Shown here: piece after piece, positions 19,122 through 52,390 of the stretch
Layout: every line of letters starts with the position of its first letter
Numbering within the stretch: position 1 is the first letter of the stretch
From: an uncultured bacterium
GTDB taxonomy: Bacteria; Cyanobacteriota; Vampirovibrionia; Gastranaerophilales; Gastranaerophilaceae
Direction of reading: 5' to 3'
Assembly: GCA_902760645.1 (NCBI GenBank)
Contig: CACWHC010000015.1
Coordinates: 1 to 64,000, forward strand
Length of the DNA stretch: 64,000 nt
The notes under the pieces: model-generated
Seen by the model: only the letters and a program-made list of their open reading frames with translations
Told to the model about the DNA's origin: nothing
Databases searched by the model: none
Position numbers and translations under genes: made by a program

Positions 19122-20840
19122 TTAACTTAATTTATCAGCCAACTCTGTTTCTAATTTTCCGTTCAGAGTTTTACTGATTTTTTGAAGTTTTTGACCGATT
19201 AGTTCCATATTATCCGTCCAAACAAAATTATCCTTAACGTATTTTTCAGCCTTATCAAAATCACCGTCAATTTGTATTCTGACGATTTCTGCGAGCATTT
19301 CTTTTGCGATAGGAACGACCTTATCAATATTTACATGTATTTTTCCGTCAACGATATCGTAAGCACCACGTTCGGAAAAATATTTATTCTGCATAACCGT
19401 TCTTACTCTGTGTGCCTGAGATAAAGTCGGTTTTGTTTTTAAGAAATTATCGGCAATTGTTGTAACAATAATTTGTTTTCGTTGTTCCTCCGTGTACATT
19501 CCTAACTCTGTCAGCAAATCAACAAATGCCAAAGAACCCATATCGGCTTTGTTTTCTTCAATTATATTACGATATTTTCCTAAGGTTTCATTTCCCTTTT
19601 TGGGACCTAAAGAATGTGCATTCTCATGCCCTATCGTAAACCAATGATCAGCTTCATCAAGATAATATTGATGCTGCTCTTTATCTAAAATTGCATCAAG
19701 TCTTTCCTGTAACTTTTTCATATCACTGATAAATCTTATCTGTCTGTGATAAACGTTTCTTCTGCCTCCGCCTATAGTAAGCGACAATTTATCATCATTC
19801 GGGAGGTTTTCCGCTAATGTTATTCCGCCTCTGTATTCGCCAACATCACCGGTTGCCGTAACCATATCCACATCAACCATTGTTTGCTTTGAATCTTCAT
19901 CGGGCTTTATATTCTGCTCGTATTCATCATTGAACGGCATATTTTTTGCAAGTATCGGAAGATATTTTTTTATAGCCATTAAGGCATCCGTACCCTTTTT
20001 ATTGATAATTCCCACTCTGCCGCCTAAAAAATCTTTTGGAACCGGTGAAATATTATTTTCATCAAGCAAATTTTTTAATTCTTCGTTCTCAATAACTGTA
20101 CCTGTCATTTCATCGGAATAATTTTCTCTTGTTATGGTAAATTCCAGCGGAGTATCCTGTAAAGTTGCCCATTTTTTATCCGCATAAGCATCCAGCATTG
20201 GATCGGCTTCCCTAAGAGCCTTTGCCTGTAATTTTAAATACTCATTAAAGTCTGCATTAGTTGATACTTTGCTTGCAGCCTCTATTTCATCAGCCATCTT
20301 AGAAAAATCATCCTTAAATTTATCTATATAATCAATTCCGATTAGTTCATCCCCGTCACGTTCAACAACGGAACGCTGAGTAAGAATTTTTCTGACCTTA
20401 TCAGCCTTTCCTGATTTTAGCATCTTTATTAATATTGAATGAAATTCCTCTACCGGTAAATCAGTCGGATAAACACCTTTACCCGGATATGCAGGGACTT
20501 CTTTTGCAAGAAAAATAGGTTCTGACATTGTGTCTATCGCATTTATCCCTTTTTGAGCATCAAAAAGGATTTTTGTCAGCTCTGCCTGCTTATTACCTTT
20601 TTTAATTTCTTCTTCCAAAAAGTTTTTAAACGGTAAATTGTGATGGTTATCAAGCTGCATATTTATAACTTCAAGAATATTTGCCGCCCGAACAAGATGT
20701 TTTAATGCCTCTTTATCACCGTCAGCCAACCCCAAATACTCAGCTGCATCAGCCTTTAAAAACTTTTTTGTCATTAAATAATCTTTGTGTGTTCTTTTTT
20801 CCAACTCTTCCATAGAAAGATTCAATGTATAATCTGCCAT
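19122..20840 (-). CDS. M49-like (dipeptidyl-peptidase III-type) zinc metallopeptidase
   Basis: 572 aa, no signal peptide. The zinc motif H405-E-N-A-H409 followed by SLGP and, about 20 residues later, EENKAD (428-433) matches the HExxH...EExKAD arrangement of the DPP III-like proteins found next to Nudix domains. Classical DPP III has HExxGH instead. The N-terminal 350 residues are helical and give no further motif. Likely a cytosolic peptidase acting on short peptides (inference). Shine-Dalgarno AAGGAG, single-gene unit. Confidence 0.75.
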   Translation of the reverse strand: MADYTLNLSMEELEKRTHKDYLMTKKFLKADAAEYLGLADGDKEALKHLVRAANILEVINMQLDNHHNLPFKNFLEEEIKKGNKQAELTKILFDAQKGINAIDTMSEPIFLAKEVPAYPGKGVYPTDLPVEEFHSILIKMLKSGKADKVRKILTQRSVVERDGDELIGIDYIDKFKDDFSKMADEIEAASKVSTNADFNEYLKLQAKALREADPMLDAYADKKWATLQDTPLEFTITRENYSDEMTGTVIENEELKNLLDENNISPVPKDFLGGRVGIINKKGTDALMAIKKYLPILAKNMPFNDEYEQNIKPDEDSKQTMVDVDMVTATGDVGEYRGGITLAENLPNDDKLSLTIGGGRRNVYHRQIRFISDMKKLQERLDAILDKEQHQYYLDEADHWFTIGHENAHSLGPKKGNETLGKYRNIIEENKADMGSLAFVDLLTELGMYTEEQRKQIIVTTIADNFLKTKPTLSQAHRVRTVMQNKYFSERGAYDIVDGKIHVNIDKVVPIAKEMLAEIVRIQIDGDFDKAEKYVKDNFVWTDNMELIGQKLQKISKTLNGKLETELADKLS

Positions 20841-20930
20841 AATAAAGCTCCTTTTCCTGAGCCAATTATAACACTTTTTCCCATCATTTACAAGGTAGGG
20901 TAAGCTAGCTTACTTTTCTCCGCCACCACA

Positions 20931-21095
20931 TTTTCCGCATTTTTATCTTAGCTACCAATATTTCCGCAAGACTTCACTGTTTTTCCGTTTTTTTATCTCA
21001 GCTACCAATATTTCCGCGAGACTTCACTGTTTTTCCGCATTTTTATCTCAGCCACCAGTATTTCCGCAAATTTGTTCGGATTTTCCGCATTTTAA
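20931..21095. repeat. 50-bp tandem repeat, 3.3 copies
   Basis: Units at 20931, 20981, 21031 and partial 21081 have an exact 50-bp period. Each contains TTTTCCG..., TTTTTATCTCAGC, ACCAATATTTCCGC and ACTTCACTG, so each has two TTTCCGC words 25-26 bp apart. A related piece begins the window (4-35). Confidence 0.85.
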
Positions 21096-21100
21096 TTCTG

Positions 21101-21121
21101 CCCTCTACCATCGGGAGAGGG
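21101..21121. repeat. third copy of the CCCTCTACC...GAGAGGG hairpin word
   Basis: 21 bp identical to 21983-22003 (starts CCCTCTACCATC, ends GGGAGAGGG), here single and self-complementary at its ends. Confidence 0.7.
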
Positions 21122-21137
21122 GTTGGCATAATAAAAA

Positions 21138-21210
21138 CAATCCGATGGTCAGGGTATCTTGGAGGATCAAAATAATATGACAGTATTATTTTCCCTAACC
21201 AATCGGATTG
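21138..21210. repeat. inverted-repeat hairpin element
   Basis: The outer arms CAATCCGATGGTCAGGG (21138-21154) and CCCTAACCAATCGGATTG (21193-21210) pair nearly perfectly. An inner AATAATA-TGACAG-TATTATT hairpin sits at 21171-21190. A 71-codon minus-strand ORF crossing it is judged spurious. Confidence 0.65.
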
Positions 21211-21477
21211 CTTTTCAGCAATATTTTTTTTGCTTAGACTCTTTACATCATTATACACCCAAACAAATTAATCTGTAAATAGATTATTAAGCTATTAACA
21301 AAAAAATTATTAAACCCTGTTTTGCTGTCGCAAAACAGTCACTCATACCTATTTTAACTGTGCGGTAGCACCGATTTGAACTGTTCACCGGTCACTGTTT
21401 ACAGGTCACATTAATCTGTACGTTTGACCCCTCACCCAAATTTCTAAGTTCACATCCGTTCACTAAGAAATCTTTTT

Positions 21478-21655
21478 CATGTCATTGCGAGCGGAAGCGA
21501 AGCAATCCATCCGTTTGGTTATTCATGTTTTATAAATATTTACTTCCTTGCTCATTTTTTAAATTTTTTGGATTGTCTTATATTTTTATAATTATGGCTT
21601 CTAAATAGCTGGATTACGTCGTCGGGCAAACCTTTGCCCTCCTCGTAATGACATG
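21478..21655. repeat. MITE-like element with CATGTCATTRCGAG ends
   Basis: Left end CATGTCATTGCGAGCG with AGCGAAGCAATCC; right end GGATTACGTCGTCGGGC ... CCTCGTAATGACATG. The ends are inverted repeats about 178 bp apart. The same element, with a longer interior, is at 50926-51213. This word family (GTCATTGCGAG...GCAATCC) is widespread as a short interspersed repeat in many bacteria. Confidence 0.75.
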
Positions 21656-21712
21656 GTTTATTTTAACCGTGCGTCAGCACCGATACGAACTGTTCACTGT
21701 TTACTGGTCCCT

Positions 21713-21930
21713 GTTCGGGATGACGTAAAATAGGCATAATTCTTTCTTCACCGTAGTCTAAAAAATCCCACGAGCGAAGCATCTTTAAAGGCAGGCTAGC
21801 CTGCAAATCCTTGTAAACCCTTACTGCGAGAGGTTCTTACCCCACTCTTAGGTGTAAATTCGCTCATAGCAATATCCTCCGCTGTTTTCTATCTGCATTA
21901 TCATTATATCGTATTTTTTAAAATTTACAA
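21713..21930 (-). other. orphan pilin-cassette leader without its gene
   Basis: Minus strand: promoter TTGTAA (21930-21925), 16-nt spacer, TATAAT (21908-21903), Shine-Dalgarno GGAGG, then a 23-codon mini-ORF (21867-21796, starts MSEFTPKSGVRTSRSKGLQ) over the palindrome GCAGGCTAGCCTGC. It matches the leader at 52066-52305 base for base over long runs. After GTTC (21713-21716) it jumps directly to sequence that at the other locus lies beyond the pilin gene. I read it as a deleted copy. Confidence 0.65.
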
Positions 21931-21982
21931 GTCTTTTTTAAATAAAAATTTAACATCTATATACAATATCTCATTTTACTCT

Positions 21983-22121
21983 CCCTCTACCATCGGGAGA
22001 GGGTAATTTTTCAAGGCGAATTTATGAGCCTTGAGGTTTTGAAAAGATTAACCCCTCACCCGAATTGCTAAACTCAACTTCGTTTCGTTAACCAATTCTT
22101 CCCTCTCCCGTTGGTAGAGGG
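21983..22121. repeat. inverted-repeat element, about 140 bp
   Basis: 21-bp arms at 21983-22003 and 22101-22121 are inverted repeats with one mismatch (CCCTCTACC...GGGAGAGGG). Each arm is itself partly palindromic. The interior has no ORF. A third copy of the arm is at 21101-21121. Small non-autonomous mobile element is the likeliest reading. Confidence 0.65.
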
Positions 22122-22133
22122 AACATTTGCATT

Positions 22134-22192
22134 TATCACAGCATATATTTGCATTCAACGAGCAAAGCATCTTTAAGGGCAGGCTTGCCTGC
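22134..22192. repeat. dispersed CGAGCGAAGCATC palindrome repeat abutting queA
   Basis: Near-copy of 44-105. CGAGCAAAGCATCT is followed by GGCAGGCTTGCCTGC. Its right edge directly touches the queA stop codon (22194-22192). Other copies are at 21771-21804 and 52147-52180. Confidence 0.7.
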
Positions 22193-30489: not shown

Positions 30490-31164
30490 CTAGTTTAATG
30501 TCAGGTTATGGTCCTTCAGATACTTCATATTGCCCTGCTGAATTACCCAATAGGCACACCCGTAACCATTAGAATTTGCAGCGGCACAATTTTCATTAAA
30601 TGGACGGCAACCATCTGATACCCCAAAAGGAACTATTCTGTTTGGCTCATTTTGAATTTCAAAAGCAAATAAGTCGTACCCCCATTGATTTGGCGGATTT
30701 ATACCGTTCACATCGTAATGTATTTCACCAAGATGATTACCTACTCTTGGATTACCTTTGAACCAAATTACAGAACCGTCGTTTAAAATGACTTTGTAAT
30801 ATTTTGAATCGGTAGAATAGTCCGCTGCAGAACTACCTTTTTTTAATTTATAAGTACCACTTATACAGCCTGCTTCATTTGTTGTCCCGCAATCTTTTGC
30901 TACATTTAAATACGGCAGAAACCAACTTGCAACAGTCGTAGCACCCTCTTCATTATCAGACACAGCAACTACTGGATTATCTTCAGAAAGATATAGATTA
31001 TATGCGTTCTGTAAAACACTGTACATCTTTTTTAATTTACTTACAGTCGCCTTTTCATTATGGTTTTGTATAAGAGCAGGCAATGTCATCGCTGCAACGA
31101 CTCCGATTATTCCGAGTGTAATTAGAACCTCTGCAAGTGTAAATGCCTTGTTTTTATTGTACAT
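30490..31164 (-). CDS. type IV pilin-like / pseudopilin protein
   Basis: 224 aa. Short basic leader (MYNKNKA), then FTLAEVLITLGIIGVVAAMTLPALI, the prepilin-peptidase site and hydrophobic N-terminal helix. The usual Gly before Phe is Ala, as commonly seen in this lineage. The globular part has four to six Cys, including pairs around CGTTNEAGC and CRPFNENC, so disulfides are likely. Surface filament or type II-like secretion pseudopilin. Shine-Dalgarno AGGGGA, single gene, convergent with typA. Confidence 0.85.
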   Translation of the reverse strand: MYNKNKAFTLAEVLITLGIIGVVAAMTLPALIQNHNEKATVSKLKKMYSVLQNAYNLYLSEDNPVVAVSDNEEGATTVASWFLPYLNVAKDCGTTNEAGCISGTYKLKKGSSAADYSTDSKYYKVILNDGSVIWFKGNPRVGNHLGEIHYDVNGINPPNQWGYDLFAFEIQNEPNRIVPFGVSDGCRPFNENCAAANSNGYGCAYWVIQQGNMKYLKDHNLTLN

Positions 31165-50784: not shown

Positions 50785-51220
50785 AAATAAAAATCCTCTC
50801 TGTACTTTTAGGGTAACTTCATGTTTTAAGAAGATTTTAGCATAAAAGTAACTATTTAAAAATATTTATATTTAGGTAGTGAACAGTAAACTGCTCTTAA
50901 CAGCCCTACAGGCAAATTGTTTTTTCATGTCATTGCGAGCGATAGCGAAGCAATCTAGCCGTTTAGTTATTCAAAGTTTATAAATTAAAGTTATTTTTAT
51001 TTGCACAAAGTACTGTAAAAACTTAATTACTTAATCACTCAATAACTTATTTACAATTAAAAAGCTGGATTACTGCCTTGGATTTCTTCCACGCTCCGAG
51101 AGTTTCGCTACCTGCACTATGTGCAAATCGCTCAATCTCGTCGCTATCCGGTACAAGTACCGTACAGAAATCCGCTTCGCAAATCAAGCCTTTGATTTGC
51201 TCGCAATGACATGGTTTATT
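50785..51220. other. repeat-rich intergenic region
   Basis: Holds the lysA leader (50785-50840), then repeat DNA: GAACAGTAAACTG (50881-50893), which is the inverse of the AGTTTACTGTTC-type word at 51250-51275, and the MITE-like element 50926-51213. No credible ORF. Confidence 0.6.
50926..51213. repeat. MITE-like element, second copy
   Basis: Perfect 15-bp terminal inverted repeats CATGTCATTGCGAGC (50926-50940) and GCTCGCAATGACATG (51199-51213), 288 bp overall. The interior has further small palindromes (for example CGGTACAAGTACCG). The same ends flank 21478-21655. Confidence 0.8.
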
Positions 51221-52030
51221 TTAACTGTGCGACAGCACCGATACGAACTGTTCACTGTTTACTGTTCCCTGTTCACTATAAGTACGATCTCTTGTTGTTC
51301 GCCAATAAAACCCTTCATAAATATCACCTTCCGGAACTCCGCCTGCATTCAATTCAGCACTGAAGCTAGAACCAAATCCATATACTCCCCTGGTATTTAG
51401 TAGATCTAAAATAAAAATATCTCTTCCTACTGTATTTGGTTTTTTAGATCCGTTAATATCTATAGATAAATTATTAGAACCTTGATCTGTAAAATTTTTG
51501 TAAAAGTAATAATCAAAAATCTCCGAGCCATCAGAAAACTTCATACAAGTCCTACTTGAGGACTTAGCCTCCGACCAAATACGTCCATTCAAGAATTTTA
51601 CCTCAGAACCGTCACACGGAGTAAACTGAATACCGGAAAATACGCTCTGAAGTCCCTCTCTAATACTACGACAATTATCGGTAAGAATATTGTCTTGACT
51701 ACAAGTAGTCCCCATTTCGCTATATGCTTCGGTATCTTTTAATTCTGTTACTCCGTCATGTGCCATCATGAGCTTAAATCCGTCACTTAACACAGAAACA
51801 GATTTTTTAAGTTGATTAACATATACCTGTTTTTGGTAATTAGAAATCAATGTAGGTAAGGTCAACGCCGCAACCACACCGATTATACCGAGGGTGATTA
51901 GAACTTCAGCGAGAGTAAAGGCGGCACGACGAGGCTTTGCAGACTGATCTACGTGCGTAGCACCTTCAGCCAAAGTAAATGCAGCTTTCTTCTTTTTGTC
52001 ATGCTGAACTCGTTTCAGCATCTGACCCAT
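51221..52030 (-). CDS. pilin-like protein with duplicated prepilin motif and repeat-derived ends
   Basis: 269 aa as read from ATG 52030. Residues 1-13 (MGQMLKRVQHDKK) are encoded by a REP-like palindrome (GCTGAAACGAGTTCAGC). Then come two prepilin-type sites, AAFTLAEGATHV and, about 22 residues on, AAFTLAEVLITLGIIGVVAALTLPTLI, the second with the full hydrophobic helix. The globular domain has several Cys (TCSQDN, NCRS, PCDG, TCMKF). The last about 17 residues (EQGTVNSEQFVSVLSHS) are encoded by the GTTCACTG repeat. The ATG has no good Shine-Dalgarno sequence, so the true start is uncertain. Confidence 0.65.
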   Translation of the reverse strand: MGQMLKRVQHDKKKKAAFTLAEGATHVDQSAKPRRAAFTLAEVLITLGIIGVVAALTLPTLISNYQKQVYVNQLKKSVSVLSDGFKLMMAHDGVTELKDTEAYSEMGTTCSQDNILTDNCRSIREGLQSVFSGIQFTPCDGSEVKFLNGRIWSEAKSSSRTCMKFSDGSEIFDYYFYKNFTDQGSNNLSIDINGSKKPNTVGRDIFILDLLNTRGVYGFGSSFSAELNAGGVPEGDIYEGFYWRTTRDRTYSEQGTVNSEQFVSVLSHS

Positions 52031-52065
52031 GGTACTTGTTGCGATTACCTTATTTTGAGTTATCT

Positions 52066-52305
52066 CTAAAGTTTTACGGTGGCTAGATCCCGAAACAAGT
52101 TCGGGATGACATAAAGTCTTTCCTCACCGTGGTTTAAAAAATTCCACGAGCGAAGCATCTCTAAAGGCAGGCTAGCCTGCAAATCCTGTAAACCCTTACT
52201 GCGAGAGGCTCTTACCCCCCCCCCTAGGCTGAAATACTGACATAATAATAACCTCCGCTATTTTGTAATACATTATCATTATAAACTATTTTTTACATTT
52301 TGCAA
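52066..52305 (-). promoter_or_regulatory. pilin-cassette leader: promoter, mini-ORF, G10 tract and palindromes
   Basis: Minus strand: TTGCAA (52305-52300), 16-nt spacer, perfect TATAAT (52283-52278), Shine-Dalgarno GGAGG (52256-52252), ATG 52243. The mini-ORF reads MSVFQPRGGGKSLSQ and stops at 52196. A run of ten G (C10 on the + strand, 52215-52224) sits inside it; with nine G the frame stays open for 58 codons to 52066. The palindromes GCAGGCTAGCCTGC and CCCGAACTTGTTTCGGG lie downstream. Homologous to 21713-21930. Confidence 0.65.
52196..52243 (-). CDS. 15-codon leader mini-ORF with G10 tract
   Basis: GGAGG 8 nt upstream of an ATG and a strong promoter support translation. The homologous mini-ORF at 21867-21796 keeps the start, the Shine-Dalgarno sequence and RTSRSKGLQ-type coding (RASRSKGLQ here only in the nine-G frame). 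May be a leader peptide or a phase-variable remnant. Confidence 0.35.
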   Translation of the reverse strand: MSVFQPRGGGKSLSQ

Positions 52306-52390
52306 GTCCATACCCCATTCAACAAATATTTTACAAATAAACGCAAAAAAAATTTATCACGAGTTTTAATATTTCACAAGGAGAAAATCT

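Follow-up and report, generated by a model that had tools for sequence, protein, structure and literature searches.

Positions 21713–21935 of the window (the whole stretch of 64,000 nucleotides analyzed here, from an uncultured bacterium of the family Gastranaerophilaceae) carry on the minus strand what has the appearance of the beginning of a gene, and no gene body follows it. To what does this leader belong, and how did it come to stand without a body? The preliminary description regarded it as the gene-less twin of a pilin cassette located at 52 kb in the window, and derived it from such a cassette by an 828-bp deletion between two copies of the tetranucleotide GTTC. We examined this proposal by a census of the genome that contains the window (G000; 1.96 Mb in 29 contigs), based on pattern and family searches, and by comparison with other genomes of the order, in particular that of the sister species, G012. 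We consider it probable that, as a whole explanation, the segment is the orphan and decaying leader of a large family of prepilin genes, which are switched by a poly-G tract and shuffled among one another.

Structure of the orphan leader

The segment 21713–21935 (minus strand) corresponds to the 5′ portion of a poly-G prepilin cassette whose gene body is missing: it belongs to a family of about 25 leader copies, and no pilin ORF is present downstream. Its first constituent is a pair of promoter-like boxes, TTGTAA and TATAAT separated by 16 nt (21930–21903, minus strand). These boxes had been described as a promoter; they are indeed present, but they represent a consensus match only (10/12), and the consensus scan found such sites in the region at a count not above that in shuffled sequences. 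A Shine–Dalgarno-like GGAGG (21876–21880, minus strand) and a mini-ORF, MSEFTPKSGVRTSRSKGLQGFAG* (21796–21867, minus strand), follow. The mini-ORF is a remnant of a prepilin leader peptide: other copies start with MSEFTPRGGG..SRSKGLQ..FTLAEV, and in these copies a type IV prepilin-like gene begins at the corresponding ATG. Its start had been noticed before, but that it is the start of a pilin gene, with a run of Gs deciding the frame, had been missed. In the 21.7-kb copy, this run has decayed to AAGAGTGGGG (21840–21849, minus strand), where the paralogues have an A and G9–G13, and an extra A after AAGAGTGGGG shifts the frame, which ends at a stop after 23 codons. At 21.7 kb itself, there is no G/C homopolymer of at least 9 nt of the kind that defines a poly-G contingency locus, and neither the prepilin motif (PF07963) nor, up to 1800 nt from the leader, an FTLAEV frame was found. 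This copy probably makes no pilin.

The rest of the segment and its surroundings consist of repeats. The palindrome that had been counted among the parts of the leader is present, but it is a separate dispersed repeat of 35 bp (21770–21804), which also occurs at 65–99 and 22158–22192. The leader is joined to a MITE-like repeat (21412–21716), and the two are also contiguous in another body-less leader, L027 (535 bp, 88.8%). Within the MITE-like repeat lies a short repeat, GAACAGGGACCAGTAAACAGTGAACAGTT (21688–21716, minus strand), which also occurs in leaders that have a gene and immediately behind pilin stops. The entire spacer between queA and the gene at 19122–20840 (20841–22191) is made of dispersed repeats, and it amounts to 1351 bp in the window as compared with 85 bp in G012.

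Relation to the 52-kb copy

The likeness on which the twin model was founded is real. BLAST within the window aligned 21738–21933 with 52114–52308 (83%, E = 3e-51), and the far side of GTTC also matches (21627–21716 versus 51185–51274; 90%, E = 6e-29). GTTC is present at all three points (21713, 51271 and 52099); the 21.7-kb leader does have the GGAGG, the ATG and the palindrome, with no pilin behind them; and taking out 51275–52102 from a cassette like that at 52 kb would yield the observed order. However, the gene-bearing leaders L021, L022, L023 and L026 continue unbroken past GTTC, to the equivalents of window positions 21696/21688. That is, the order of leader and GAACAGGGACCAGTAAACAGT exists in copies retaining the gene, in which the leader and the flank are already joined across GTTC. 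These leaders extend about 20 bp beyond it (GAACAGGGACCAGTAAACAGT...), and GTTC is therefore not the breakpoint.

Nor does the 52-kb copy represent an intact state. Its cassette has an ATG (52243–52241, minus strand) and a G10 tract (52215–52224, minus strand), and the prepilin-like ORF (51221–52030, minus strand) matches PF07963 (E = 1.7e-6), the protein scoring 27.8 bits against a curated cut-off of 21.2. Its leader frame is broken, since a stop downstream of the G run closes the pilin frame before the prepilin motif is reached, and the C-terminus has been replaced by the repeat sequence into which it reads. Furthermore, its leader bears a different repeat at the position of GTTC, and the gene at this site in G012 is likewise frameshifted. 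The 52-kb ORF is a probable pseudogene.

Gene-bearing leaders already have the two sides of GTTC joined, and the 52-kb copy is damaged; for these reasons, the 828-bp deletion across GTTC is unsupported, and we regard it as very improbable, although the description of the 21.7-kb copy as a leader without a gene is a fair one. The gene-bearing leaders go past GTTC, and any deletion therefore ended in the short repeat that is common to the leaders and the sequence following pilin stops. Judged from the sequence, this short repeat (21688–21716) is likely to be the true recombination zone.

The leader family and its G runs

A search of G000 with the leader gave 36 matches, about 25 of which are leaders including the start codon. 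The simple model of two twin copies was ruled out by these 36 matches. The members of the family have a common layout: a Shine–Dalgarno sequence and an ATG, about 19 nt, a run of G9–G13, and then, often via in-frame repeats, FTLAEVLITLGIIG. PF07963 matches were found in 55 genes of G000. The G runs of at least 9 nt in this genome number 31, where about 0.4 would be expected by chance (an estimate from base composition alone), and all of them are at prepilin loci: 28 are directly upstream of a PF07963 match, and the remaining three are at decayed pilin loci, namely, the gene-less L027 and two loci with a damaged prepilin motif, L023 and L029. In the latter two (C6:7770 and C19:7877, respectively), the motif has been deleted and the G tract has been kept. 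A further prepilin-like gene, without a G tract, is found in the region of window position 31143 (minus strand), and its G012 orthologue is 94% identical and occupies the same site.

The relation between the frame of the ATG and that of the pilin differs among the copies. In L041, L024, L044 and L046, as well as in L140, the ATG leads straight into the pilin; L041, for example, has MTVFQPRGGGKTSCDKGFNGFTLAEVLITLG and reads through as MTVFQPRGGGKTSCDKGFNGFTLAEVLITLGIIGVVAA, and its protein scores 26.0 bits against PF07963 (cut-off, 21.2). The ATG frame of most copies ends shortly after the run (GGGKNLSQ*), and the pilin frame, which is offset by 1 or 2, is open from the run to FTLAEV. The G count separates the in-frame from the out-of-frame copies: L024 with G9 and L021 with G10, for instance, have an identical downstream frame. 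Of the 45 loci of G000 and G012 with at least 60 nt between the run and the motif, 37 have a pilin frame that is open as far back as the tract; of the 90 other frames, 1 is open. Seven genes with short leaders (22–32 nt from the tract to the motif) are out of frame and have no alternative start in between. In addition, dN/dS values of 0.11–0.25 were obtained for some pairs of reciprocal best hits whose members are out of frame in G000 as well as in G012. In view of the open pilin frame, the lack of another start and these dN/dS values, the out-of-frame pilin genes appear to be used, and their use needs slippage of DNA, RNA or the ribosome.

Repeats of the REP/MITE type lie between the G run and FTLAEV and form part of the reading frame in L021, L022, L024, L026 and L032, and at 51931–52030 of the window. 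In some copies, such repeats extend the prepilin leader to more than 100 residues, and a duplicated FTLAEGATHV motif is common.

Exchange and loss of gene bodies

The prepilin motif is likely to be a point of recombination. Among the sites of which both flanks are conserved between G000 and G012, four were found to carry unrelated bodies (amino acid identities: L028/L193, 42%; L035/L169, 32%; L037/L195, 36%; L148/L230, 29%) and two were found to carry near-identical ones (L166/L262, 99%; L140/L259, 96%). The bodies of L041/L253 are also near-identical (95% in DNA), and a shared flank was not found for this pair. The site L160/L192 has the same gene in both species, joined at FTLAEV to a poly-G leader in G012 and to a plain promoter and ATG in G000. 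At the conserved sites L160/L192, L140/L259, L028/L193 and L035/L169, the sister species differ in the body or the leader, a pattern of modular shuffling round the prepilin motif.

The short repeat is located in the leaders of L021, L022, L026 and L045, and right after the pilin stops of L024, L025, L035 and L038. Recombination between such copies would therefore remove the body. The comparison of related genomes, which had been recommended as a check, gave different results for the two body-less leaders. L027 (C1:80459), which shares the 535-bp leader–repeat unit with the 21.7-kb copy, is situated beside rpsA, and G012 has a complete gene (L247) at this site, between the same neighbors (rpsA and a kinase-like gene). 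Loss is therefore demonstrated at the L027 site, and gene loss does occur in the poly-G prepilin family. At the 21.7-kb site, G012 has neither leader, gene nor repeats but the 85-bp spacer, and a gene present in a relative was thus not found there. This empty sister site counts against the preferred explanation, under which a body may once have been present at 21.7 kb.

The empty site speaks for the alternative that the leader–repeat unit may be mobile by itself and have landed between queA and the gene at 19122, without ever having been accompanied by a gene there. The unit of identical type at L027 and the separability of leaders from genes, as seen at L160/L192, are in line with such movement. 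On the other hand, L027 is a site of loss, and when the 1.35-kb mosaic filler, for which the empty site is known in G012, was inspected for the terminal inverted repeats and target duplication of a MITE, neither clean or defined ends nor a duplication were seen. Moreover, the closest relative of the leader half is the gene-bearing L025 (92%), while that of the repeat half is L027 (91%), and this difference suggests that the 21.7-kb copy is a mosaic. Independent movement of the unit is possible, but we consider it doubtful on balance. In the explanation preferred here, that of a decaying leader from the prepilin family, the orphan leader at 21.7 kb is an ordinary decay product.

Distribution in the order

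The pattern GGAGG-N4-12-ATG-N9-30-G9 was found in 93 of the 383 genomes of the order and in 14 of its 52 genera, all of which belong to the window's own family; a reversed-pattern control was nearly empty among the same 383 genomes. The leader peptides vary between genera, and the G run is kept. One genome, G014, has 68 loci with a Shine–Dalgarno sequence, an ATG and poly-G, the tracts ranging from 8 to 13. This genome is 1.7 Mb in size, many of its 68 loci are at contig ends, and some of its leaders have repeated GALGSK..GADFALE units in an open frame. IMG/VR was searched for population variants and gave one match, a glycine-rich protein, which is unrelated.

In G021 (genus g10; example loci, L200, L203 and L218), about 30 loci have near-identical mini-ORFs, MQK..I..ISGGGAT*, and the pilins visible downstream usually have their own start. 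This feature would suit a short leader that is functional in its own right, e.g., as a leader peptide or a small RNA, and the promoter boxes, the Shine–Dalgarno sequence and the 23-codon ORF have been kept at 21.7 kb. However, the tract and the frame have decayed there, and in the window's genus the ORF continues into the pilin. We give very little credence to such a function for the 21.7-kb leader. The mini-ORF as an independent leader peptide is likewise disfavored for the window's genus by the in-frame copies, which run into the pilin.

Heritable switch or programmed slippage

The following mechanism may connect these observations. A constant leader (promoter, GGAGG, ATG, about 19 nt, G9–G13 and a short basic stretch) is fused to FTLAEVLITLGIIGVVAA and a variable body. 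The G count determines if the ATG lies in the frame of the pilin, and strand slippage, by gaining or losing Gs, would turn the gene on or off. Leaders and bodies are exchanged between loci, probably via recombination at the shared prepilin motif, and the short repeats in the leaders and behind the genes let a body drop out. In the 21.7-kb copy, the body has been lost or is absent, the G run has been broken by substitutions and the frame ends after 23 codons. We infer the on/off step from the observed tract lengths, frames, open pilin frame and purifying selection, using one genome per species and comparing paralogues and the sister species.

Offset 1 was found in 33 of the 47 open loci of G000 and G012, whereas permuting the tract lengths among loci gave 19.9 on average (p < 5e-5), in a test whose related copies are not independent of one another. 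The tract and flank lengths compensate so as to hold offset 1 (context/G pairs: 0/10, 2/11 and 1/12), and for this reason the frame relation appears, at the level of sequence, to be conserved across the tract. Uniform tracts were found in G188, where 20 of 20 loci have G9 and the long open frame has offset 2 at most of the loci read out, and in G021, where 29 of 30 loci have G11. The offset-1 excess and these uniform tracts count against plain random slippage. Together with the purifying selection on genes out of frame in G000 and G012 alike, they speak for the tract being a site of programmed slippage rather than a heritable switch: RNA polymerase or the ribosome would slip, a fixed fraction of the product would be in frame, and most paralogues would be constantly off by one. 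Against this stand the copies of G000 that are in frame (five) or at offset 2 (five), the usual offset that differs by genus (1 in G000 and G012, 2 in G188), and the tracts of 8–13 in G014. Programmed slippage seems rather unlikely, and we tentatively rate heritable phase variation as somewhat more likely.

A more general proposal can be made, albeit tentatively, and we would not count on its being correct: the prepilin genes of this bacterial family may hold a conserved off-by-one frame, such that slippage, either heritable or programmed at the RNA or ribosome level, would be the only way in which dozens of pilins per cell are produced. Leaders and bodies would be shuffled between fixed sites, and body-less leaders such as that at 21.7 kb would be vacant sites.

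Relation to known systems

Campylobacter has poly-G contingency loci, with many G8–G11 tracts in the surface genes of a low-GC genome. Those tracts are spread over many gene families, whereas here every G tract of at least 9 nt is at a prepilin locus. Dispersed palindromic repeats, some of which are translated in frame, are represented by REP/MITE and in-frame palindromic elements such as RPE of Rickettsia; the repeats found here differ in that they lengthen the cleaved prepilin leader between the G tract and FTLAEV.

In pathogenic Neisseria, PilC is controlled by poly-G/C tracts of at least 9 nt inside the pilC reading frames (PMC5953494). The likeness to pilC1/pilC2 consists in a pilus-related gene with a G/C homopolymer of at least 9 nt inside its reading frame, the length of which sets the frame; PilC, however, is a pilus-retraction and adhesion protein encoded by two copies (PMC5953494). 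In the unrelated gut/rumen lineage studied here, about 28 pilin-like genes per genome have the tract immediately ahead of the prepilin motif. The pilE/pilS system of Neisseria is similar in that pilin bodies are swapped behind a constant N-terminus (PMC5953494). Here, in contrast, many loci own a leader, and a single expression locus with silent copies was not identified. The open-access literature yielded no report of a large prepilin family under poly-G control in this lineage, which is weak evidence of absence; the family is apparently unreported.

The orphan leader at 21.7 kb thus points to a genome-wide set of about 28 prepilin genes, in which a slippage-prone G run stands between the start codon and the pilin. 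The same arrangement recurs, with lineage-specific leaders, in about one-quarter of the genomes sampled from the order. Such a family would suggest combinatorial pilus variation in these gut/rumen bacteria.
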